In this document: positions 1,035 to 20,734 of the stretch, piece by piece
Numbering within the stretch: position 1 is the stretch's first letter
Layout of the letters: each line of letters begins with the position of its first letter
The notes under the pieces: model-generated
Database searches by the model: none
Told to the model about the DNA's origin: nothing
The model's input: the letters and a program-made list of their open reading frames with translations, nothing else
DNA from: a virus
Direction: 5' to 3' (one strand)
DNA: 37,551 bases
IMG/VR virus record: IMGVR_UViG_3300036857_000124
Location: 1 to 37,551 of that record
Program-made: the position numbers and the translations under genes

Positions 1035-2444
1035 ATGAAGACGCTCGACGGCTATATCAGAGTGAGCCACGTCGGCAAGCGCGATCGCGACGGCGACGGC
1101 TTCTACACGGTGAAGGATCAACGCAAGGCGATCGAGGCATGGGCGAAAGCGAACGGCTCGAAGATCGTCGCATGGCACGAGGACCTCGACCAATCCGGCG
1201 GCACGCTCAACCGGCCCGGCTTCTCGGCCGCGCTCGAGCGGGCCCGGGCGGGCCTTACCGGCGGCATCGTCTCGGCGAAGCTCGACCGGCTCTCGCGCTC
1301 GGTCGTCGGCCTCGGCACGCTGCTCGAGGATGCACAAGAGCACGGCTTCAACGTCGTCGCGGTCGACTTCGGCCTCGACTTCCGCACCTCGAACGGCCGC
1401 CTCGTCGCGAATGTGCTCATGGCGGTCGCGCAATGGGAGCGCGAGCGGCGCGGCGAAGACTGGTCGGCGGCTCGCGCTAACGCGATCGAGCGCGGCGTCC
1501 CGAACGGGCCCGTACCGTTCGGCTACCGGAAGGGCGACGACGGCCGCCTCGTCGTGCACAAGCGCGAGGCCGCGAAGGTGCTCGAGGCCTTCGAGCTCCG
1601 CGCGAGCGGCATCGGGCTCGTCGAGCTCTCGAAGCGCCTCGGCTGGTCGCACTCGACCGTGCGGGCCCGGCTCGCCGACGAGGTCTACCTCGGCGTCGTG
1701 CGCTCGGGCGAGAATCGCAAGGAAGACGCCCACGAGCCGATCGTCCCGCGGGAGCTCTTCTACACGGTGCAGGCGGCGAAGCGTGCGCTCGCGCGGAGCG
1801 GCGAGACGACCGCCGAGCGGCTGCTCGTCGGGCTCGCCCGCTGCGGCGGCTGCGGCCGGACGCTCAAGGTCGTAAGCGGGCCGAAGCTGAAAGACGGCTC
1901 GCGCGGGCAGGGCTACTACTGCCGCGACTCGGCGAAGGATCGGTGCGTGTGCCGCGGCGGCGCCTCGGCGGCCGCGCTCGACGCGCACGTCGTCGCGTTC
2001 TTCGAGCGCGAGCTCGCGACGGAGGGGAGCGTCATCACGGCGGTCGAGTCCGGCGACGAGCTCGTCGAGGCCGAAGCCGAGCTCGCCAAGGCCGAGGCCG
2101 AGCTCGAGGCTTACGCGGTGCACGTCTCGGCGACCGAGCTCGGTTTCCGCGCGGGCTTCGAGGTGCGGCAGGCGCGCCTCGTCGAAGCGCGTGAGCGGGT
2201 AGCGATCCTCGGGACGCAAGCGCGGGCCCTACCGGCTTTCGGAGGTGCGTCGGTTGCGGAGGTCTGGCGAGACGCGACGACGCCCGAGCGCCGGGCGATC
2301 CTCGCGGGCTACCTCGACCGGGTCGTCGTGCACGGCTCGGCGACGAGCGGGCCGCTTGCTTCCCGCGTCGACGTCTACTGGTCCGACGGGACGCCCGCGC
2401 TCATCGCTGACCCGGAAGCTCGCGCCGGGGTAACGGCGTCGTAG
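1035..2444 (+). CDS. int: Large serine integrase (site-specific recombinase)
   Basis: The 469-residue protein has the layout of large serine recombinases. An N-terminal resolvase domain (about 1-150) carries the motif GYIRVS with nucleophile Ser11, and a later KLDRLSRS. A recombinase domain follows (about 155-260, including PFGYRK). Then come a zinc ribbon (CGGCG near residue 275, with further Cys after YYC), an Ala/Glu-rich coiled coil and a C-terminal DNA-binding part. It should integrate the phage between attP and attB without a high-energy cofactor. The ATG at 1035 follows the ribosome-binding sequence GAGAGGA; an upstream in-frame GTG at 990 lies inside the operator-like repeats and is less likely. 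A terminator follows. Confidence 0.95.
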   Translation: MKTLDGYIRVSHVGKRDRDGDGFYTVKDQRKAIEAWAKANGSKIVAWHEDLDQSGGTLNRPGFSAALERARAGLTGGIVSAKLDRLSRSVVGLGTLLEDAQEHGFNVVAVDFGLDFRTSNGRLVANVLMAVAQWERERRGEDWSAARANAIERGVPNGPVPFGYRKGDDGRLVVHKREAAKVLEAFELRASGIGLVELSKRLGWSHSTVRARLADEVYLGVVRSGENRKEDAHEPIVPRELFYTVQAAKRALARSGETTAERLLVGLARCGGCGRTLKVVSGPKLKDGSRGQGYYCRDSAKDRCVCRGGASAAALDAHVVAFFERELATEGSVITAVESGDELVEAEAELAKAEAELEAYAVHVSATELGFRAGFEVRQARLVEARERVAILGTQARALPAFGGASVAEVWRDATTPERRAILAGYLDRVVVHGSATSGPLASRVDVYWSDGTPALIADPEARAGVTAS

Positions 2445-4061: not shown

Positions 4062-4240
4062 GGGTCGGTCGGCGGATTCCCGAGCCGACGGAAGACGTCG
4101 TCGGCGTCGTCGGCGAGCTCGCGCAGGCGCTCGAGCAGGCCCTCGAGCTTGTCGGCGCCGTCGGGGTCGCCGCCGTCTCGGTGACGATCGCGCAGGCCTT
4201 CGAGCTTCTCGAGGTACTCGCGTAGGCGTCGCGTGTTCAT
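4058..4240 (-). CDS. Small charged helical (coiled-coil) protein
   Basis: The 60-residue protein has no membrane segment. Residues 4-52 form a leucine-rich charged helix (LREYLEKLEGL, later LEGLLERLREL) that looks like a short coiled coil. It overlaps the endolysin gene and the next membrane gene by ATGA and GTGA. Its function is unknown. It may bind the endolysin or one of the small membrane proteins. Confidence 0.6.
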   Translation of the reverse strand: MNTRRLREYLEKLEGLRDRHRDGGDPDGADKLEGLLERLRELADDADDVFRRLGNPPTDP

Positions 4241-5157
4241 GGCGTGAGCGGGGGTCGCACGACGAAGAGAAAGTCGCCTCGATAGTAGAGCTTGCGTCTC
4301 GAGGGTGGCTCGCTGCCGAAGCTCCACCAATCGGCCGAGTCGGAGTTGCCCGCCTTGATACAGACGGTGACGTGCGACGAGTCGCCGTCGTCGCCGTAGT
4401 GGGCGAGGTCGCCGACTTGGTAGCTCCCGCTGACGCGCGGGTGCTCGACCTCGTAGTAGTCGGTATTGCCATAGCCCGAGTAGCCCTGCTTCGAGGGGTC
4501 GGGCACGTCGATTCCGGTCGCTCGCTTCGCGGCGTTGAAGGCCTGTATCGCCGACATTGAGCAGTCGCTCGTCACGTGTCCGGCCGGATCGACGGAGGGA
4601 TCGAGCGCCCGGACCATCTCGTAATCCCACCCGCTCGGATGGGCGAGGCCCGTCTCGCAAAAGTCGACGATCGCCTCGCGCACGCGTTCGACCGCGCTCC
4701 CGTCGTCGCCGCCCCCGGACGGTTCCTTGCCGCCGAAGCGGTCCCACGCCTGCTCGAGCAAGTTGACGGCGGTCGCGTCCATTGCGGGCTCGCCCGCGTG
4801 CGGCAGGCCCTCGGGGATTCGGATCGAGCGGAAGAGGTTGTAGGTTGCCGTGCCGACGAAGCCGGAGTCGGGCTCGATCTTCCCTTGCCGCTGCACGCCC
4901 GCGACGCCCGAGTCGCCGACGTTGCCGCCGGGTTTACCGTGGGCGAAGCCGTTCGAGTAGGCGTCGTCGAAGGTGCCCCACGGCCAACGCCCGGCCCTCG
5001 AGACGACGCGCTTATAGGCGACGACGTCGGGCCCGTCCGAGCTCGGCGTCTTCCCTTGCTTCGTTGCGTCGGGCGGATACAGGGGCCGTGGAAGCGGCGG
5101 CGTGTCGATCATCGGCCCACCCGGGTAGGCGCGCTGCCACCACGCGCCGCCGCTCAC
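4237..5157 (-). CDS. lysA: Endolysin with peptidoglycan-binding-like and Cys/His amidase/peptidase domains
   Basis: The 306-residue protein has two parts. Residues about 40-140 resemble a peptidoglycan-binding helical domain (GDSGVAGVQRQGKIEPDSGFVGTAT read as separate short motifs). Residues about 155-306 look like a CHAP or NlpC/P60 papain-like hydrolase with candidate Cys199 in TSDCS, the PGDLxHY-like motif QVGDLAHYG and candidate His262 in SSHVTV. It should cut the host cell wall at the end of infection. No signal peptide is seen, so a holin is expected, and several small membrane genes follow directly. The start is GTG at 5157. Confidence 0.85.
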   Translation of the reverse strand: MSGGAWWQRAYPGGPMIDTPPLPRPLYPPDATKQGKTPSSDGPDVVAYKRVVSRAGRWPWGTFDDAYSNGFAHGKPGGNVGDSGVAGVQRQGKIEPDSGFVGTATYNLFRSIRIPEGLPHAGEPAMDATAVNLLEQAWDRFGGKEPSGGGDDGSAVERVREAIVDFCETGLAHPSGWDYEMVRALDPSVDPAGHVTSDCSMSAIQAFNAAKRATGIDVPDPSKQGYSGYGNTDYYEVEHPRVSGSYQVGDLAHYGDDGDSSHVTVCIKAGNSDSADWWSFGSEPPSRRKLYYRGDFLFVVRPPLTP

Positions 5158-5350: not shown

Positions 5351-6043
5351 TCACGACGTGCGCACCGGCGTTATCGCGAGGAAGCGGTTGAGCACGGTGA
5401 GCGTGCCCGCGATCGCGTGCTGGTACTTGACCCGGAGCTCGTTGCCTGCGGTGAGCCCGGTGAGCGAGGCCTCGCCGATGATCGTCCCGTGGTAGTTCGC
5501 CGCGGAAATGTGCCCGCGGGCCTCGGCGAGCACGGCGCCCGCGGCGAAGTCGCCGATCCCGATCCCGACGTTGATCTGCGAGTCGGCGGCCGAGTCGATT
5601 ACGGTCGCCCCGAAGCGGACCGAGTAGTCGCCGCCCATCGGCACGGTGATCCGCGGGCCGAGCGTGGCGAGGTTGACGTAAGAGCCGATCGTCGTCGTCG
5701 TCTCGGAGGCCGCGACCGCGACGCGCAGGGCCGCCCCGCCGACGAAATCCCATCGAATCCGAGCGGCGTTGTAGCGGAAGCGCCATACGTAAGTCGGATT
5801 CGAAGCGTTGTCGACCATGAAACATTCCTGCCCGTCGATCGTGCCGCCGGGTAGCGCCACCGTGAGAGGGATGACGGCGCCCTGCGCGGCCGGGACGCGG
5901 CCGTCGGCACCGGTCGCGGCGAGCCCGTTCGGCACTCCGCGGGCGGCCTCGACGGCGGCGGCGAGCTCGCCGAGGTCGATCGGGACGTCGGCCGGATCGC
6001 TCTCGGCCGGGAAGGGAAGGTGCAATACGGGCGTCTGTGGCAT
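5351..6043 (-). CDS. Minor tail / tail-tip structural protein
   Basis: The 230-residue protein has an N-terminal segment (about 1-60) with LGELAAAVEAARGVPNGLA and a small ADGRVPAAQG motif, as commonly seen where phage tail-fibre proteins attach. A beta-rich C-terminal domain (about 75-230) resembles a trimeric fibre head, for example in the stretch ending VLNRFLAITPV. A strong ribosome-binding site AGGAGG precedes the ATG at 6043. It lies between lysis and baseplate genes, the usual place for receptor-binding or tail-tip proteins. The exact receptor role is inferred. Confidence 0.7.
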   Translation of the reverse strand: MPQTPVLHLPFPAESDPADVPIDLGELAAAVEAARGVPNGLAATGADGRVPAAQGAVIPLTVALPGGTIDGQECFMVDNASNPTYVWRFRYNAARIRWDFVGGAALRVAVAASETTTTIGSYVNLATLGPRITVPMGGDYSVRFGATVIDSAADSQINVGIGIGDFAAGAVLAEARGHISAANYHGTIIGEASLTGLTAGNELRVKYQHAIAGTLTVLNRFLAITPVRTS

Positions 6044-13889: not shown

Positions 13890-14188
13890 TAGTGCGCCTC
13901 GTATCTGAGCCCGAGGGCCGTGACGGCCGACTGCACCGGCCGATAGGCGGGATTGAAGCGCGTCCCGTATTCCATCCAATGCCAAAAGCTCGAGCCGACG
14001 TGCACCTTGAAGCCGTCGTCGGCTTCCTCGACGGTCGGCTTGTAGCTCTTCTGCATCGTCCCGTCGTGCACCGGCACGAAGCTCGGGATCGTCGCGGCGA
14101 TCGCCTCGGCCGCAGGCCGAAGCCCGGGCTTCGCGAGCTCCCCGATCGTCTCGGGCGCGTCCGATTTCCAGCGCACGACGGTCGGCAC
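13889..14188 (-). CDS. HK97 gp10-like head-tail connector protein
   Basis: The 99-residue protein contains the pattern of gp10-like proteins: a helix (APETIGELAKPGLRPAAEAI), then a strand region GTMQKSYKPTVEE and the conserved ending HVGSSFWHWMEYGTRFNP. It precedes the tail terminator and shares TAGTG with its start. In this family the protein bridges head completion and tail tube. The GTG start at 14188 also coincides with the stop of the gene before it. Confidence 0.75.
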   Translation of the reverse strand: MPTVVRWKSDAPETIGELAKPGLRPAAEAIAATIPSFVPVHDGTMQKSYKPTVEEADDGFKVHVGSSFWHWMEYGTRFNPAYRPVQSAVTALGLRYEAH

Positions 14189-14490
14189 TACGCGACCTCG
14201 ATTTCGCCCTCTTCGGTGCCGAGGTCCTCGTCGGGCTCGCCCTGGACGCCGGGCCCGATATCGCCGCTCTCGCCGTCGTCGCGCCAACCGACGATCGTCA
14301 CGTGCGAGGTGCCGGTGAAGTCGTCGGGGTAGGTGAGCACGGCCTGCCCGTCGTTCGGCAGGGCGTTGCGGGTCGAGACGTCGCCGGTCGCGACGTTCTC
14401 GGCCTTGATATCGACGAGCTCGGCGTCGATCGCGTCGGCGTCCCACTTGATCGAGACGGCCTTGCGCGTCGAGTCGACTTCGACTGCCAT
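14188..14490 (-). CDS. Small structural protein, possibly Ig-like (hypothetical)
   Basis: The 100-residue protein has a short alternating beta pattern in residues 1-75 (VSIKWDADAIDAELVDIKAE, later HVTIVGWRDDGESG) and an acidic tail of about 25 residues. It sits inside the head-tail connector block. A small decoration or connector role is possible, but no family is recognised. A strong ribosome-binding sequence (AGGAAGGGGGAACGA) precedes the ATG at 14490. Confidence 0.6.
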   Translation of the reverse strand: MAVEVDSTRKAVSIKWDADAIDAELVDIKAENVATGDVSTRNALPNDGQAVLTYPDDFTGTSHVTIVGWRDDGESGDIGPGVQGEPDEDLGTEEGEIEVA

Positions 14491-14514: not shown

Positions 14515-14868
14515 TTAGGCGGCCGCCTGCCCGTAGTCGGTCCTGCGCACGACGGCCTCGACGTGCGCGTCGCCGGTGAGCGGCGAGCGGAGCTCGAAGG
14601 CGTCGCCCTCGAGCTCGAGCACCTCGCCCGTATCGACGAGCCGGATCGCGTCCCACCCGCGCAGGGGCGAGCCTGCGGCGAGGAAGAGCCGGTAGGTCGC
14701 GATTTGCACCGAGCCGGTCGCGTCTTCGCGCGAGCCTGCCGTCTGTAGCTCGCAAAGGGTCGCCTCGAGCACCTCGACGACCGGCTGCGCGCCGTCGGCG
14801 TCGGGGTCCTCGGCGTAGGTTCGCCGCACGAGCTCGACCGGGATCGTCAAGAGGTGCTCGACGCTCAC
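14515..14868 (-). CDS. Head closure / head-tail stopper protein
   Basis: The 117-residue protein is beta-rich, with VEVLEATLCELQTAGSRED, ATYRLFLAAGSPLRGWDAI and LVDTGEVLELEGDAFELRS read in order. This matches small phage head-closure proteins (SPP1 gp16 or lambda FII-like), where a 'grid' of strands and the phrase on defining a value and unit offset are typical. It follows the adaptor with GTGA overlap. The GTG start is at 14868. The role is taken from order and fold pattern. Confidence 0.65.
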   Translation of the reverse strand: MSVEHLLTIPVELVRRTYAEDPDADGAQPVVEVLEATLCELQTAGSREDATGSVQIATYRLFLAAGSPLRGWDAIRLVDTGEVLELEGDAFELRSPLTGDAHVEAVVRRTDYGQAAA

Positions 14869-15389
14869 GGCCACTCGCCCGAGTAGATTCGATCGAGGTC
14901 GCGCTGCCACCAATCGACCGGCCAGTCGAACGGCGGCCCGGAGGTGTCGAGCGTGTAGACGCGCCGGTGCCGGGGCGCCCACGGCCCGAGCGCCTCGGCG
15001 AGCTCGCCGAGCACGGTGACGACGTTGTCGAAGGTGAGCGGCGAGGCGAGCCGATAGGAGTAGCTCCCGATCGTCTCGCCGACGACCGACCCGGCCTTCG
15101 AGAGCTCGGCCCCGGCGAAGCGCGCGGCGAGCGCGAGCCCGACGGCGTGCACCGGCGGCGGTACCGGGTCGGGGATCACGTTCGGCCAGCAATAGGCCTC
15201 GATCGTGATTTGCACGAGCTCGGCGACCCGGGCCGCCTCGTCGGCCTCGAGGCCGAGCAGCGTCTCGAGCTCTTCGGGCGTGACGATCTGCCCCCACGTG
15301 TCCGCGGCCGCCGGGGCGCCCGTGGCGCCGACGCCGACGGGCGTCGCGAGCCGAGCTCGGCGATAGACGCGGTCAGAACGAGTAGACAT
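14865..15389 (-). CDS. Head-tail adaptor (gp6-like connector)
   Basis: The 174-residue protein contains the familiar adaptor pattern: a helix with [20 protein letters not shown], then [13 protein letters not shown] and later a helix [14 protein letters not shown]. This resembles HK97 gp6 / SPP1 gp15-like proteins that dock on the portal. The ATG at 15389 lies inside the end of the fibre gene, overlapping it by 17 bp. The genes after it encode the stopper and gp10-like protein, so the connector series is complete. Confidence 0.75.
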
Positions 15390-17700
15390 AGACGCCCCCT
15401 CGCGCGCCCGCGCCGCCGCTGCCGCCGGTCGCGGTGCCGCCGCCGCCGCCCCCGCCGCCGCCGCCGCCGGGAGCGCCACCATTGCCGCCGTTTCCGGCCT
15501 GCCCCGCCGTGCTGCGACCGCCGCCGCCGCCGCCGCCCTGCCCGCCAGACGTGAAGCCGCCCGCTGCGCCCGGCGAGCCGTTGACGCCGGTTCCTGCGCC
15601 GCCTGCGCCGCCGCCGCCTGCTGACTGCCCATGCGAGCCGCCGTCGCCGCCTGCGTTCGCTTGAATCCCGCCCGAGCCGCCGCCGCATCCGCCCTTGATC
15701 GAGCCGCCGCCCGAGCCGCCTGCGCTCGCGCCGCTCGGGCTCCCTGCGCCGCCGCCGCCGCCGTTGTAGCCCTGCCCGCCCGCGCCTGCGGCCGTACCGC
15801 CGCCGCCTGCGCCGCCGCTATCGCCCGAGGGCGAGCCGCTCGCCGCCGCGCCGCCGATATTGCCGCCTGCGCCGCCCTGCCCGGTGTTCGAGACGCTCGC
15901 CCCGGCGCTCATGTTTCCGCCGCCGCCGCCGCCCCCGCGGACGGCCGCCGAGCCGCCGCGCGAGCCGCCCCCGCCGCCGTAGGCCGTGAGCCGATTCTCG
16001 GCCGACGAGAAGCTCGAGTCGCTCCCCTGTGCGCCGTCGGTCACCACTCCGGCGATGCCCGTCGGCGCGCCAACGATGACCGTCTCTTGTGCGGCAAGGT
16101 CGGCCGCCCGATACCAACGCTCGACTCGAGCGCCGCCGCCGCCGCCTGCGCCCGCGCTGTTCGCGTTCGTATTGGCGCCGCCGCCGCCGCCCCCGCCGCC
16201 GTACACGACGACGAGCACAAGCGTCGCCCCGGTCGGTTTCTGCCAACCGCTCGCGCCGGTGAAGGTGCCCGCCACCTCGAAGGTCTGCACGTTGATCGCG
16301 GCGCCAGGCGTACCGGCGTCGCCCTTGTCGCCCTTGTCGCCCTTCGGCCCCTTAAGCGTGATTCCCGAGAAGACCCATCCGGCCGCTTGCTGCTCCCATA
16401 CGTTGCCGGTCGCGCCGTCGAGGTAGAGCGTCCCGACTCGGTCGGCCGAGGGTGAGGGCTCGCCGACGCCGTAAATCCACTCGTCGCCCGGCGTACCGGC
16501 CGGGCCCGTCGTACCTTGCGAGCCCGTATCGCCCTTCGGGCCCTGCGCGCCAGGCGTCCCGGGCGCGCCCTGAGCGCCGGTATCGCCCTTCGGCCCCTGA
16601 GCTCCATCGGCGCCGGGCGGGCCCTGAGCGCCGGTATCGCCCTTCGGGCCTTGCGGTCCGGGCACGGTCGAGTCGGCGCCGGGCGGGCCCTGAGCGCCCG
16701 TTGCTCCCGCGGGGCCTTGAGCTCCGGTATCGCCCTTCGGGCCCTGCGAGCCGGTGTCGCCCTTCGGGCCTTGCGAGCCGGGCAATCCGGTCGGCCCGCG
16801 AAGATTGCCGCGAAGCGTCCACGTCGACGCGTCCGTCTTCTCGTAGAAGTCGCCGCTCGAGGCGAGGTACCAGTCATCGACGGCGCCTATCGCCGGGCTC
16901 GGTACGCCCGCGCCGGTCCACCACTTTTCGCCCGGAGTACCGGGCGCGCCGGTCGCGCCGGTATCGCCCTTCGGGCCCTGAGCTCCGGGCGCACCGGGAT
17001 CGCCCTGCGGGCCTTGAGCTCCGGTATCACCCTTCGGACCCTGCGCACCGGGATCACCTTGCGGGCCCTGAGCTCCGGTCGCGCCGGGCGTTCCGGGATT
17101 GCCCTGCGGGCCCTGAGCTCCGGTCGCGCCGGACGGCCCTGCGGGGCCCTCGACGCCCTGCGGGCCTGCCGGGCCTGCCGGGCCTTCGGGCCCTTGAATC
17201 GGACCCGCGTTGATCCATTGCGCCGATTCGGCGTCCCATATCCAGAGGTCGCCCGTCGCCTCGACGACGTAGGCGTCGCCGTCGGCCGCGCCGCTCGGGA
17301 GGTCGCCGACGGTCGGGACCTGCCCCTTGACGTTGATTCCGGTCCCGGCCGGGCCCTGCGGGCCCTGCGGGCCGGTCGGCCCTGCCGGTCCGTCCGGGCC
17401 GGGCGGCCCCTGAGCTCCGGGCGCGCCGTCGGCACCATTCGCGCCCGGCGGCCCCGGATCGCCCTCGGGACCGGAAGGCCCTTGCGCGCCGGGCGGGCCC
17501 GCTGCTCCGGGCGGCCCGGGCACGGTCGAGTCGGCGCCGGGCGGGCCCGGCGGCCCCGGCGGTCCCGCGTTCGTTGCGAGGATCGTGAGCGTGAGCTCTT
17601 CGCTGAGCTCAGTGAGAATGTCGGGGCCGTCGAGGTCGACGTCGACCATGACGTCGCCGATGAGCTCGACGTCGACGGTTGCCTCGGGCGCCGGGCTCAC
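15373..17700 (-). CDS. Collagen-like and polyglycine-rich fibre protein
   Basis: The 775-residue protein has a short N-terminal anchor (about 1-45), then long Gly-X-Y collagen-like blocks (about 46-490). Three small beta modules interrupt them, each with a Trp-containing pattern such as [17 protein letters not shown]. Then comes a short beta domain ([18 protein letters not shown]) and a very glycine-rich region of some 240 residues that ends in GGVYVYSF. The repeats predict a trimeric fibre with a polyglycine tip, as in adhesins of some phages. It is placed inside the head module, not in the tail genes. The GTG start overlaps the BppU-like gene by GTGA. Confidence 0.85.
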
Positions 17701-18074
17701 GGGGCCCTCGTGACGTCGAGCGTGCACGTGACGGCGCCCTGCACGAGCGTTACCGGCTCGCTCCCCTCGGGCGTCCACTGGACGTCATAGACGCCCTTGA
17801 AGGCCTCGCCGGTGCCGTTGACGAGGGCCGCCGTCTGTGCGCCGGTGAGGTGCAAGACGACGACGCCCGAGGCCGCTTCGGCCGCGTCGACAGTGAAGTC
17901 GACGAGCGGCGCGGCGTCGGGCCGAGCGTGCCGGATTTGCGCCGTGACGGCGCCGGTGAGGTCGAGCGGCGCGGGCGGGCTCTCGGTGTTCCGCACGGTG
18001 ATCCGCAAGGCCGCGCCGTCGCCCGCGTACAGGGCGAGGTCGACCTGCTGCGGGACGAGCGAGAGCGTCGCCAC
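17697..18074 (-). CDS. BppU N-domain-like structural protein
   Basis: The 125-residue protein is like the N-terminal domain of phage baseplate upper proteins: [30 protein letters not shown] and a late VYDVQW strand. In siphophages this fold anchors receptor-binding fibres. It directly precedes the collagen-like fibre gene with which it overlaps by GTGA, so it is probably the fibre's base or mount. The position after the capsid gene suggests attachment to the head. Confidence 0.7.
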
Positions 18075-18086
18075 GCGCCTACCGTC

Positions 18087-18263
18087 CTATTCGCCCGAGC
18101 TCTCGCTCGGGGTCGTGCCCGTCGCCTTCGAGCTCGAGCTCGAGCCCTTCGGCTTCGCCTTCGCCTTCGGCTTCCGCGGCGTCGGCGTCTTCGAGGCCTG
18201 CTCGAGCTCGCCCTTCCTGCGGCGAGCGGCGAGCGACCGGCGTGCCGCGTGCGACCTCGGCAT
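18087..18263 (-). CDS. Small lysine- and arginine-rich protein after the capsid gene
   Basis: The 58-residue product (beginning MPRSHAARRS) has an Arg-rich N-terminus, a Lys/Pro tract and a Ser/Thr-rich tail. Third codon positions are about 94% G or C, far more than in the competing overlapping frame at 18079-18285. The ATG lies 2 bp after the capsid stop. The composition suggests a nucleic-acid-binding or disordered capsid-associated protein, which is inference. Confidence 0.55.
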   Translation of the reverse strand: MPRSHAARRSLAARRRKGELEQASKTPTPRKPKAKAKPKGSSSSSKATGTTPSESSGE

Positions 18264-18265
18264 CG

Positions 18266-19135
18266 CTACGGCGTCCAGTCGACATTCGCGAAGGCGTCCG
18301 AGGTGCCGCTGCCGTCGGCCTTGAGCGGCGAGCCGATCGCCGCGCCGAGGCGCATGTAGCAGCGCATCGCGACGAGGTCCTCTTGGAACGCGTTCGCGAT
18401 GATTTCGCCCGCGGCGTCCTGCAAGATCGCCGAGTCGGACGTCTCGAAGCGAATGTCCTGCCGAAGCCCGATCACGAGCTTCGTCCAGTCGCCGACGATC
18501 GCGTCGCCCTTGCTCGAGTCCCACACGGTCGAGACTTCGACCGGCAGGCCGTAGAGCGTCTGCGCGGGCGGCGCTTCGGGCGTGACCATGAGAGCGCGGT
18601 ACTCCTGCCGGAGCGCCGTGCCGATCGCGGTGCCCGAGGCGATCCCGTTCGGGATGAGGCCCTCGGCCTCGACCGCGGCCATGCCCTTGTCGATCGCGTC
18701 GAGGGCGTCGGTGCCGGTGATGACGGTCCCGCCGCTGACGCCGTTCGGCGGGAAGCTCGGCGGCTCGCCGTTGCCGAAGAGCAGGGCGTCGTCGATCACC
18801 TGCGCCATTGCCGAGCTCACGAGCGGCCGGACCTGGTCCCACACGGGGAAGCCCGCGTCGTCGACGAAGGCGCTCGGAATCGCTAGCGCGCAGGCGAGCT
18901 CTTCCGGGACGATCTGCTGCGACGACCACTCGATTTTCGTCGCGGGCTTCTGACCGCCGAAGCGCGGATTTACCCATCCGGCGGCGGGCAGAGCCGAGAC
19001 GACGGGGAACTGCTCGAGCCCCTGCGGCATTCGGATAACGGTGCCGAGCGCCATTGCGACGCTCTCGACCGTTACCGCGTTGAGAAGCTGATCCGAGACG
19101 GCCTGCGGAATCAGACTGTCGTAATCCGTTGCCAA
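18266..19135 (-). CDS. Major capsid protein (HK97 fold)
   Basis: The 289-residue protein matches HK97-type capsid subunits without a long N-terminal delta domain: MATDYDSLIPQAVSDQLL, then a helix MALGTVIRMPQG, the P-domain stretch AMAQVIDDALLFGNGEPP and the C-terminal ANAFQEDLVAMRCYMRLGA. The best start is a TTG at 19135, because it alone lies at good distance (about 10 bp) from AGGGAGGT. It is preceded by a 139-bp leader with two hairpins. Capsids of this type assemble with the scaffold protein encoded upstream. Confidence 0.92.
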   Translation of the reverse strand: MATDYDSLIPQAVSDQLLNAVTVESVAMALGTVIRMPQGLEQFPVVSALPAAGWVNPRFGGQKPATKIEWSSQQIVPEELACALAIPSAFVDDAGFPVWDQVRPLVSSAMAQVIDDALLFGNGEPPSFPPNGVSGGTVITGTDALDAIDKGMAAVEAEGLIPNGIASGTAIGTALRQEYRALMVTPEAPPAQTLYGLPVEVSTVWDSSKGDAIVGDWTKLVIGLRQDIRFETSDSAILQDAAGEIIANAFQEDLVAMRCYMRLGAAIGSPLKADGSGTSDAFANVDWTP

Positions 19136-19274: not shown

Positions 19275-20132
19275 CTAGCCGAGGTCGTGCCAGTCCTGCG
19301 GCGTGAGCCCGATCGCGTAGACCGAGTCGCGCTTCGGGACGTAGTAGCCCTCGGCCTTGTAGCTCGCGACCGACTTGTAGGTCGCGCCCTCGCTCGAGCT
19401 CCCGTAGCAGCCGATCGCGTTGCCGCCGACGCCCGCGCCGTCGTCGCCGTAGTCGGGCACCTGCCAGGGCCAGACGTTCCGGTAGAGCTCGAAGGCGAGC
19501 AGCACCTCGCCGGTTCCGATCCGGTCGCATTGATCGGAGCGGAGCGCGGCGAATTGCCCGATCATCCGCCGGGCGCCGCCCGCGTAGGCGTTGTCGAACT
19601 CGGGCGCGGTTTCGCATTGCCCCCACGCGGGCCCGTCGAGGCCGAGCTCGTCGACCATCGCCTCGGCGACGTCGTAGCCGGTGCCTTCGCCCTCGACGTA
19701 GCCGGAGGGAATCCGGCAGTCGCACCATGCCTCGACGCGGCCGAAGTGAGCGCGAAGCTGCGCGATCGTGTCGGGCGAGTAGAAGTCGCGATAGCCGAGG
19801 TCGGCCGTGCATACCGGGACGAGCCACGAGGGCCCCTCGAGCGCGTCGAGGGGCGACTGCGCGAGGAAGGCTCGCGCCTGCGCGCTCGAGACGTTGACGC
19901 CGGGCGGTCGGTAGTCGTCGTCGTCGGCGGCGTCGTGATCGGCGAAGGTGATCGAGAGCGCCCGCTCGAGCTTGTCGTAGGCGCCCCACTGGTCGAGCGG
20001 GATCGTGAGCGTGCCGATCGACGGCCACTTGCCGTCGGCGCCCTTCCTGAGCTTCGTCCCGCCAGGGTCGAGGTTCCGCCAGCGGTTCGCCGCGGCGGTT
20101 GCGCCGTGCTGAGGCCCGATCGTCGTCGCCAC
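19275..20132 (-). CDS. Unknown protein with TIM-barrel-like hydrolase features
   Basis: The 285-residue protein lies between the scaffold and the capsid genes. The middle (about 95-240) shows alternating strands and helices with conserved-looking patches: PVCTADLGYRDF, AHFGRVEAWCDCRIPSG, GPAWGQCETAPEFDNAYAGG and GEVLLAFELYRNVWP. The acidic and aromatic residues in them could form a glycosidase-like site. No family is identified, and a fold assignment is tentative. The GTG start at 20132 shares TAGTG with the scaffold stop, which shows coupling to structural genes. Function unknown. Confidence 0.65.
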   Translation of the reverse strand: MATTIGPQHGATAAANRWRNLDPGGTKLRKGADGKWPSIGTLTIPLDQWGAYDKLERALSITFADHDAADDDDYRPPGVNVSSAQARAFLAQSPLDALEGPSWLVPVCTADLGYRDFYSPDTIAQLRAHFGRVEAWCDCRIPSGYVEGEGTGYDVAEAMVDELGLDGPAWGQCETAPEFDNAYAGGARRMIGQFAALRSDQCDRIGTGEVLLAFELYRNVWPWQVPDYGDDGAGVGGNAIGCYGSSSEGATYKSVASYKAEGYYVPKRDSVYAIGLTPQDWHDLG

Positions 20133-20734
20133 TATGACCGCCCCCTTCGCGCCGCCTTCCTGAGCCACGCCGAGCCGTCGACGTCGGTGTCTTTCGTTCC
20201 GCCCGGCTTCGTCCGGGCGCCTTGCGACTGGACGCCGACCTTCCGGCCTGCGCCGTTGTCGCTCACGCCGAGGTAGGGCTTCTCGTCGACGAGCCGGTCG
20301 ATCCGCTTGTCGAGCTCGCGGTCGTCCTCGTCGAGCTCGAGCAGGCCCTCGAGGTCGAGGTAGCGGACGGCGTCGTCGGGGTCCTGCAACTTGCCTGCGG
20401 CGGCGGCGAGCACCTGCGCCTCGAGCAGCCTGCGGCCGTGCTCGGCGGCGGCGGCGGCGCGGCCGCGCTGCTCGGCCTCGGCGAGCTCGCGCTCTTTCTC
20501 GCTGAGCCCTTCCGTCTTCGCACGCTCGAGGTCCTGCTCGGCCTTGCGGAGCTTGCGCCGGTGCTCGACGTTTTCGCGGCGTAGCTGCTCGATCGTCCGC
20601 TTCGCCCCTTCCGGGTCGGTGCGGATGAGCTCGAGCTCGTCGTCGCGGTCGTCGTCTTGGCGGTCGTCGCCGCGGTCGTCCTGCCGGTCGTCGTCGTGCT
20701 GATCGTCGTCGTGCTGCCGGTCGTCGTCGGCCAT
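20132..20734 (-). CDS. Scaffolding protein
   Basis: The 200-residue protein precedes the capsid region and has the long coiled coil of phage scaffolds: about residues 35-100 with QLRRENVEHRRKLRKAEQDL and EKERELAEAEQ, then an Asp/Leu-rich helix and a basic C-terminus (AWLRKAARRGRS) that probably binds the capsid subunit. The first 32 residues are a striking Asp/Arg/Gln/His tract (for example QHDDDQHDDDRQDD), absent from most scaffolds. The ATG at 20734 is preceded by AAGGGGGGCAGC. Confidence 0.85.
   Translation of the reverse strand: MADDDRQHDDDQHDDDRQDDRGDDRQDDDRDDELELIRTDPEGAKRTIEQLRRENVEHRRKLRKAEQDLERAKTEGLSEKERELAEAEQRGRAAAAAEHGRRLLEAQVLAAAAGKLQDPDDAVRYLDLEGLLELDEDDRELDKRIDRLVDEKPYLGVSDNGAGRKVGVQSQGARTKPGGTKDTDVDGSAWLRKAARRGRS

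Follow-up and report, generated by a model that had tools for sequence, protein, structure and literature searches.

The 37,551-base window, a whole IMG/VR virus record with a G+C content of 71%, carries between its capsid gene and a probable head-tail adaptor gene a two-gene cassette encoding a predicted socket protein and a collagen-like fiber. We tentatively read this pair as an optional adhesive module, most likely positioned at the neck (collar) of the virion, a reading based on the sequence, a predicted fold, and analogy to characterized phages, and to which we assign slightly less than an even chance. The socket, with its predicted Ig-like BppU/p132 fold, would oligomerize, probably into a ring, and the N-terminal ~45 residues of the fiber would thread into it. 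A presumed collagen-like trimer would then project outward, bearing a Gly-rich adhesive tip, while the socket would dock on the head side, most likely at the neck among the portal, adaptor, and stopper. Such neck "whiskers" could reversibly bind cell-surface or environmental glycans, with a separate tail-tip protein committing the virion to infection.

The structural genes lie on the minus strand and begin with the terminase, an SPP1-type portal, a protease-like gene, the scaffold, and the capsid, which bounds the cassette site on the left. A 58-residue protein, the 125-residue socket, the 775-residue fiber, a probable adaptor, and the Hc1 stopper follow (Table 1), and downstream of Hc1 come the major tail protein, the tape measure, and the tail-tip genes. 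The original prediction had placed the fiber and its partner between capsid and adaptor genes; profile matches bear this out for the capsid and for Hc1, while the candidate adaptor had no PHROG match of its own and is named from gene order. The candidate adaptor gene is kept in 20 or more relatives. From its sequence, the 58-residue gene is apparently a shortened form of an 81- to 85-residue gene at the same place in relatives, and it is not clearly a member of the fiber cassette.

TABLE 1 Coordinates and supporting evidence for the cassette, its neighbors, and the tail-tip protein in the window
Feature	Position	Strand	Evidence or remark
Tail-tip receptor-binding candidate, own conserved N-terminal anchor	5351..6043	-	phrog_7565 minor tail protein, 2.2e-10
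Head-closure (stopper) protein Hc1	14515..14874	-	phrog_501, 1.7e-6; two genes downstream of fiber
Candidate head-tail adaptor	14865..15389	-	Gene order: capsid-to-Hc1 interval, as in phages Eileen and Muddy
Collagen-like adhesive fiber, 775 aa (putative)	15373..17700	-	GTG start overlapping socket-gene stop (GTGA)
Fiber C-terminal tip, residues 469-775, Gly_rich_2 plus Gly-rich sequence	15376..16296	-	PF21722
Fiber shaft, four collagen-like blocks with three Trp-containing beta modules between	16297..17565	-	
Fiber N-terminal anchor, residues 1-45	17566..17700	-	Alternating-hydrophobic strands ahead of first Gly-X-Y run
Socket/adaptor protein, 125 aa, predicted Ig-like BppU/p132 fold, PHROG 1084	17697..18074	-	Profile and predicted fold
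Small basic 58-residue protein	18087..18263	-	Compared with L001:8873-9118 and L004:8891-9148
Major capsid protein, HK97-type fold	18266..19135	-	Phage_capsid, 1.4e-22; PHROG major head protein, 4.7e-40

The adaptor ATG overlaps the final 17 bases of the fiber gene, so that, with the overlap at the other end of that gene, the socket, fiber, and adaptor genes look translationally coupled. The fiber had been predicted as a 775-residue protein with collagen-like blocks and three repeated Trp modules, and the open reading frame, the Pfam Collagen match (PF01391; 2.3e-25, 88.6 bits, passing the cutoff of 27.2), and a shuffle test all agree with that description. Its Gly-X-Y runs comprise 20, 30, 14, 20, and 6 triplets, compared with a longest run of at most 11 triplets in 1,000 shuffles. 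The Trp modules occupy residues ~122 to 169, 260 to 301, and 408 to 450 (about positions 17194 to 17337, 16798 to 16923, and 16351 to 16479). Four alternating-hydrophobic motifs make up the anchor; three or more are found in 0.6% of background 45-residue stretches. At the C terminus, the Gly_rich_2 domain scores 5.8e-6 and 26.9 bits, above its cutoff of 24.3, and was missed by a six-frame scan of the genome. The Gly-rich end itself is present as predicted, although its length was underestimated at about 240 residues: it covers the 275 residues from 501 to 775, 44% of which are Gly. Among the Gly spacings there, just those at lags 1 and 3 show enrichment, by 1.3-fold. A phmmer search of the Gly-rich end against PDB sequences gave no match, and a tblastn search of the phage collection with the whole fiber gave none with the low-complexity filter acting. 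The polyglycine-II-like tip of the original prediction, a sandwich of packed polyglycine-II helices as in S16 gp38, is therefore a guess.

Differences from relative L001, whose capsid is 84% identical, fall 7, 3, and 16 times on codon positions 1, 2, and 3 over the first 51 codons of the fiber gene (84% of residues identical), which argues that the frame is real coding sequence. Codon differences in the socket gene follow the same purifying pattern as at the fiber anchor. Identity to L001 is 80% in the third Trp module and 53% in the Gly-rich end, and at the sequence level this combination of a conserved anchor and a fast-changing tip resembles the pattern typical of adhesive fibers.

Residues 8 to 124 of the socket align with positions 5 to 117 of the 123-position phrog_1084 profile (7.1e-15), a family labeled "unknown function," and a weak match (7.2e-5) was obtained to phrog_3304, the T5-type L-shaped-fiber assembly proteins. 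An AlphaFold2 model of the socket reached a pLDDT of 86.7 from an 18-sequence alignment (61.6 with 5 sequences). The top structural match of this model was p132 of T5/DT57C (Foldseek, 1e-9; VIA-align, Z 12.2 to 12.3), with Z 12.2 over 115 residues at an rmsd of 2.7 for T5 p132, followed by the BppU ring of mycobacteriophage Douge at Z 10.1; ordinary Ig domains reached about Z 7.5 or less. The Ig-like adaptor domain of R4C (Z 7.7) and the neck chain of P74-26 (Z 8.3) were matched as well, but with scores close to those of unrelated Ig folds. By whole-domain match of the predicted structure, the socket is assigned to the p132/BppU fold group. Because its predicted fold is that of T5 p132, a ring protein that grips side fibers, the pair is best read as a socket with an adhesive fiber.

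Fold and PHROG family thus support the earlier description of the partner as BppU-like, whereas a Pfam match of its own to BppU_N (PF10651) was not found at an E value of ≤1; the socket relative in L004 reached 21.5 bits with this profile, under the cutoff of 23.1. In hhalign comparisons with TP901-1 N termini, the socket matched the neck-passage protein at 20% probability and BppU at 0.3%, and since these matches are weak, we do not claim membership in the lactococcal family. Used alone as a query against viral contigs, the window socket retrieved no relatives.

Relatives of the window were collected by capsid sequence, and the capsid-adaptor region was visible in about 23 lineages, counted by hand from partial contigs, with gene calls from a custom finder that had been trained on the window. 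A capsid-alignment profile search of genome contigs yielded one distant Clostridia contig. Synteny in relatives had been proposed as a check on the head-block location, and that location does recur, with a socket and fiber within the head block in about 5 of the 23 lineages. The cassette occupies the capsid-adaptor site in the window, L001-3, and L004 and the scaffold-capsid site in L022 and L017, in the latter on the opposite strand, and a sixth lineage, G023, carries it upstream of the terminase. Capsid and adaptor directly adjoin each other in L005 (71% capsid identity) and L021, among others. Present in some relatives and absent from others, the cassette is an optional accessory module, and it is mobile, with two head-block sites, one inversion, and one pre-terminase copy.

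The content of the cassette also varies among these relatives. That of L017 (L017:4865-7847) consists of a socket, a 640-residue collagen fiber, and a LamG-like protein, inverted relative to the surrounding head operon. The capsid-adaptor interval of L004 (L004:8891-13078) holds a 145-residue product with a match to PHROG 240 "head protein" (6.7e-13) and a 941-residue Ala/Ser-rich fiber with a LamG domain, and the BppU-like gene there comes after the fiber, not before it.

The socket family extends well beyond these relatives. Socket matches were found in 26 Streptomyces records, most of whose listed map positions, near 17 to 19 kb, resemble that of Faust; in the two in which gene order was read (Enygma and Faust), a PHROG 1084 gene is followed directly by a fiber gene in exactly the capsid-adaptor interval. 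Enygma gp51 to gp53 and their relatives in the Stanwilliamsviridae repeat the arrangement of a PHROG 1084 socket, a collagen-like fiber, and then a LamG-like protein, and the Enygma fiber likewise has a strand-rich N terminus and a Trp module. However, these are unrelated large phages, and their fiber is short (195 aa), lacks a Gly-rich tip, and is annotated as "tail fiber" or hypothetical. In marine CRP-6-like contigs, the socket gene lies between the portal and the protease/capsid wherever both ends are visible, with the exception of one contig whose portal match is on the opposite strand. A socket relative adjoins the terminase in the haloviruses HRTV-25 and HGTV-1. In Flavobacterium phage FCL-2, ORF17 (L158:8980-9324) is a PHROG 1084 member (1.2e-24) between portal and capsid, but no collagen fiber gene was found beside it. 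ORF17 has been named as an Ig-like protein possibly behind mucus binding, a role inferred in that work (PMC6867891).

Socket-family domains also occur in the tail modules of Vibrio phage V6Aob, Pseudomonas phage MD8, and Bacillus phage vB_BhaS-171, and in MD8 the socket gene is followed by a short protein with strands before GPPG. Taken together, PHROG 1084 reads as a fiber socket in general, and its gene position varies by group. Gene position alone as proof of a head site is ruled out by MD8, V6Aob, and G023.

We prefer the neck because gene position favors the head side and the predicted fold favors a ring around a tube, and only the neck meets both. On the side of a neck or head location are the head-block cassettes and the presence of PHROG 1084 among the head/packaging genes of unrelated phage groups. 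In Shigella phage Sf14, neck-whisker genes are located between portal and capsid (PMC11821841). Lactococcal neck-passage proteins combine a BppU-type N-terminal domain with a whisker and a carbohydrate-binding tip, have been located at the neck by immunogold, are nonessential, and vary among phages (PMC6669499, PMC4759559, PMC4493119). Those of the 936 and TP901-1 phages resemble the window cassette as accessory combinations of a BppU-type domain, a fiber, and a presumed glycan-binding end, and the 936 neck-passage gene, like the cassette, is one of the structural genes preceding that of the major tail protein. In contrast, the lactococcal version is a single protein with a coiled-coil shaft, whereas the window has two genes and a collagen shaft. 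Against the neck stand the best structural matches (p132 and Douge BppU), which are tail-tip rings, the tail-module socket genes of V6Aob and MD8, the pre-terminase cassette of G023, the apparent tail-tip loss in L022, and the weakness of the profile match to the TP901-1 neck-passage N terminus.

The closest structural precedent leads to the strongest competing explanation. In T5, a collar of twelve p132 subunits is interwoven with density that was attributed to the ~50 residues at the side-fiber N terminus (PMC10038345). The T5 L-shaped-fiber system resembles the window not only in the predicted socket fold but also in keeping socket and fiber as separate proteins and in the length of the docking segment, to be compared with the 45 residues before the collagen in the window fiber. 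The T5 p132 gene, however, belongs with the tail genes, and its product is found at the tail tip. The same paper treats p140/p132 as a T5-family landmark (PMC10038345), whereas the PHROG 1084 family is wider. The window fiber could therefore be a tail fiber encoded out of place, with the socket forming a ring around the distal tail, like p132 in T5 or BppU in TP901-1 and Douge, and holding the collagen-like fiber there, and with its gene position an accident of cassette insertion, which we consider rather unlikely. The nearest solved structures being tail-tip rings (PMC10038345, PMC13033339) and the tail-module relatives in V6Aob and MD8 speak for this explanation, as do the "tail fiber" labels on the best PHROG families of the fiber, which match mostly through collagen repeats. 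It is countered by the recurrence of a head/packaging-side location, at several sites, across four or more phage groups that are unrelated, and in seven relatives with a readable tail-tip region, the cassette was not seen there.

A tail location would also have to accommodate the tail-tip protein that the window and its relatives retain. Its conserved anchor (LPxPxxxDxxDVPxD...) is common to the window, G003, G004, G023, and L033, is also listed for L154, L153, and L155, and is unlike the fiber anchor. The tips are another matter: the C-terminal domain of the window tail-tip protein corresponds to the fiber tip of G023 (80 of 193 residues identical, G023 residues 384 to 589), and the tip of the G004 tail-tip protein is of the Gly_rich_2 type, as on the window fiber (52 bits). 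Such sharing is among the points in favor of a tail fiber. It also shows tips being exchanged between the fiber and the tail-tip protein in the window lineage while the two anchors stay distinct, and we take this crossover to indicate that the two proteins have similar binding roles at separate sites. L022 weakens the two-site reading and lends some support to a tail fiber, as its tail region seemingly lacks the anchored tail-tip protein and a related domain is found inside its head cassette. Replacement of the tail-tip protein by the fiber is ruled out, since the window, G003, G004, and G023 carry both. More broadly, PHROG 1084 may be a portable head-side socket in unrelated phage groups, holding neck or head whiskers made of collagen-like fibers that have a short, strand-rich docking N terminus in common and whose tips are traded with the tail-tip protein, a proposal that we hold with some reserve, as plausible but less than even.

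The original prediction was of head fibers, and its adhesive fiber and link to head genes stand, but placement on the capsid surface fits less well than a neck collar, because the fold of the partner forms rings (T5 p132, TP901-1 BppU, and the lactococcal collar). To our knowledge, a BppU/p132-fold partner does not occur with hexamer-bound decoration proteins, and the fold is that of a known ring former. A capsid-surface fiber would, in the manner of SPP1 gp12 or phi29 gp8.5, be a collagen-like trimer bound to hexamers or at quasi-threefold sites, and we judge it unlikely. On the expanded SPP1 capsid, gp12 forms a collagen-like trimer, and its gene lies between those of the scaffold and the capsid (PMC6316719, PMC7602432), the interval that the L022 and L017 cassettes occupy. 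The window and SPP1 portals belong to one family (PF05133), both systems have collagen-like repeats encoded among head genes, and gp12, too, is nonessential. However, gp12 has 64 residues, lacks a BppU/p132-fold socket partner, and sits at hexamer centers, and the fiber anchor pairs with a socket gene in phages whose capsids are unrelated. That the pair is not part of the virion at all, but a secreted or vestigial product, would agree with the absence of the fiber from most relatives but is very improbable given overlapping genes embedded in the structural operon, the purifying codon pattern at the anchor and socket, and the structural fold of the partner.

As a neck module or otherwise, the cassette is an add-on that may help viruses adhere to cells or surfaces, and the analysis proposes a structural role for a PHROG family filed under "unknown function" that is spread across actinobacterial, marine, Flavobacterium, Vibrio, and haloarchaeal viruses. 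The analysis further connects the socket family with FCL-2 ORF17, suspected in phage-mucus binding. As a rule for recognizing such add-on adhesion devices, we offer a socket gene overlapping a fiber gene whose product has a short strand-rich N terminus before collagen repeats. If the module is on the head side, phages would reuse tail-fiber parts as neck or head whiskers, and if the socket is indeed portable, a single lineage would display one set of binding domains on two different anchors.

Several other genes of the window have relatives in different positions. A 297-residue gene without a Pfam or PHROG match in the scaffold-capsid interval (19275-20168, minus strand) has a relative (63%) upstream of the terminase at L154:17152-18021, and L004 has one (32%) lying between Hc1 and the following gene; as its relatives sit elsewhere, this gene, too, is a mobile accessory element within the head block. 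For a 100-residue gene adjoining Hc1 (14188-14490, minus strand), the only relative found is in L004 (1545-1787, 53%), where it precedes the terminase. The probable endolysin gene of the window (4237-5157) follows the tail genes, and its relatives at L009:6702-7802, L011:2622-3722, L014:2197-3018, and L015:2895-4103 are in scaffold-capsid or pre-portal positions. Finally, a 469-residue recombinase-like protein (1035-2444, plus strand), whose N terminus (IRVS...DQRKAIEAWA) resembles serine recombinases by eye, has relatives at L154:7665-9146 and L156:776-2245 and suggests a temperate phage.
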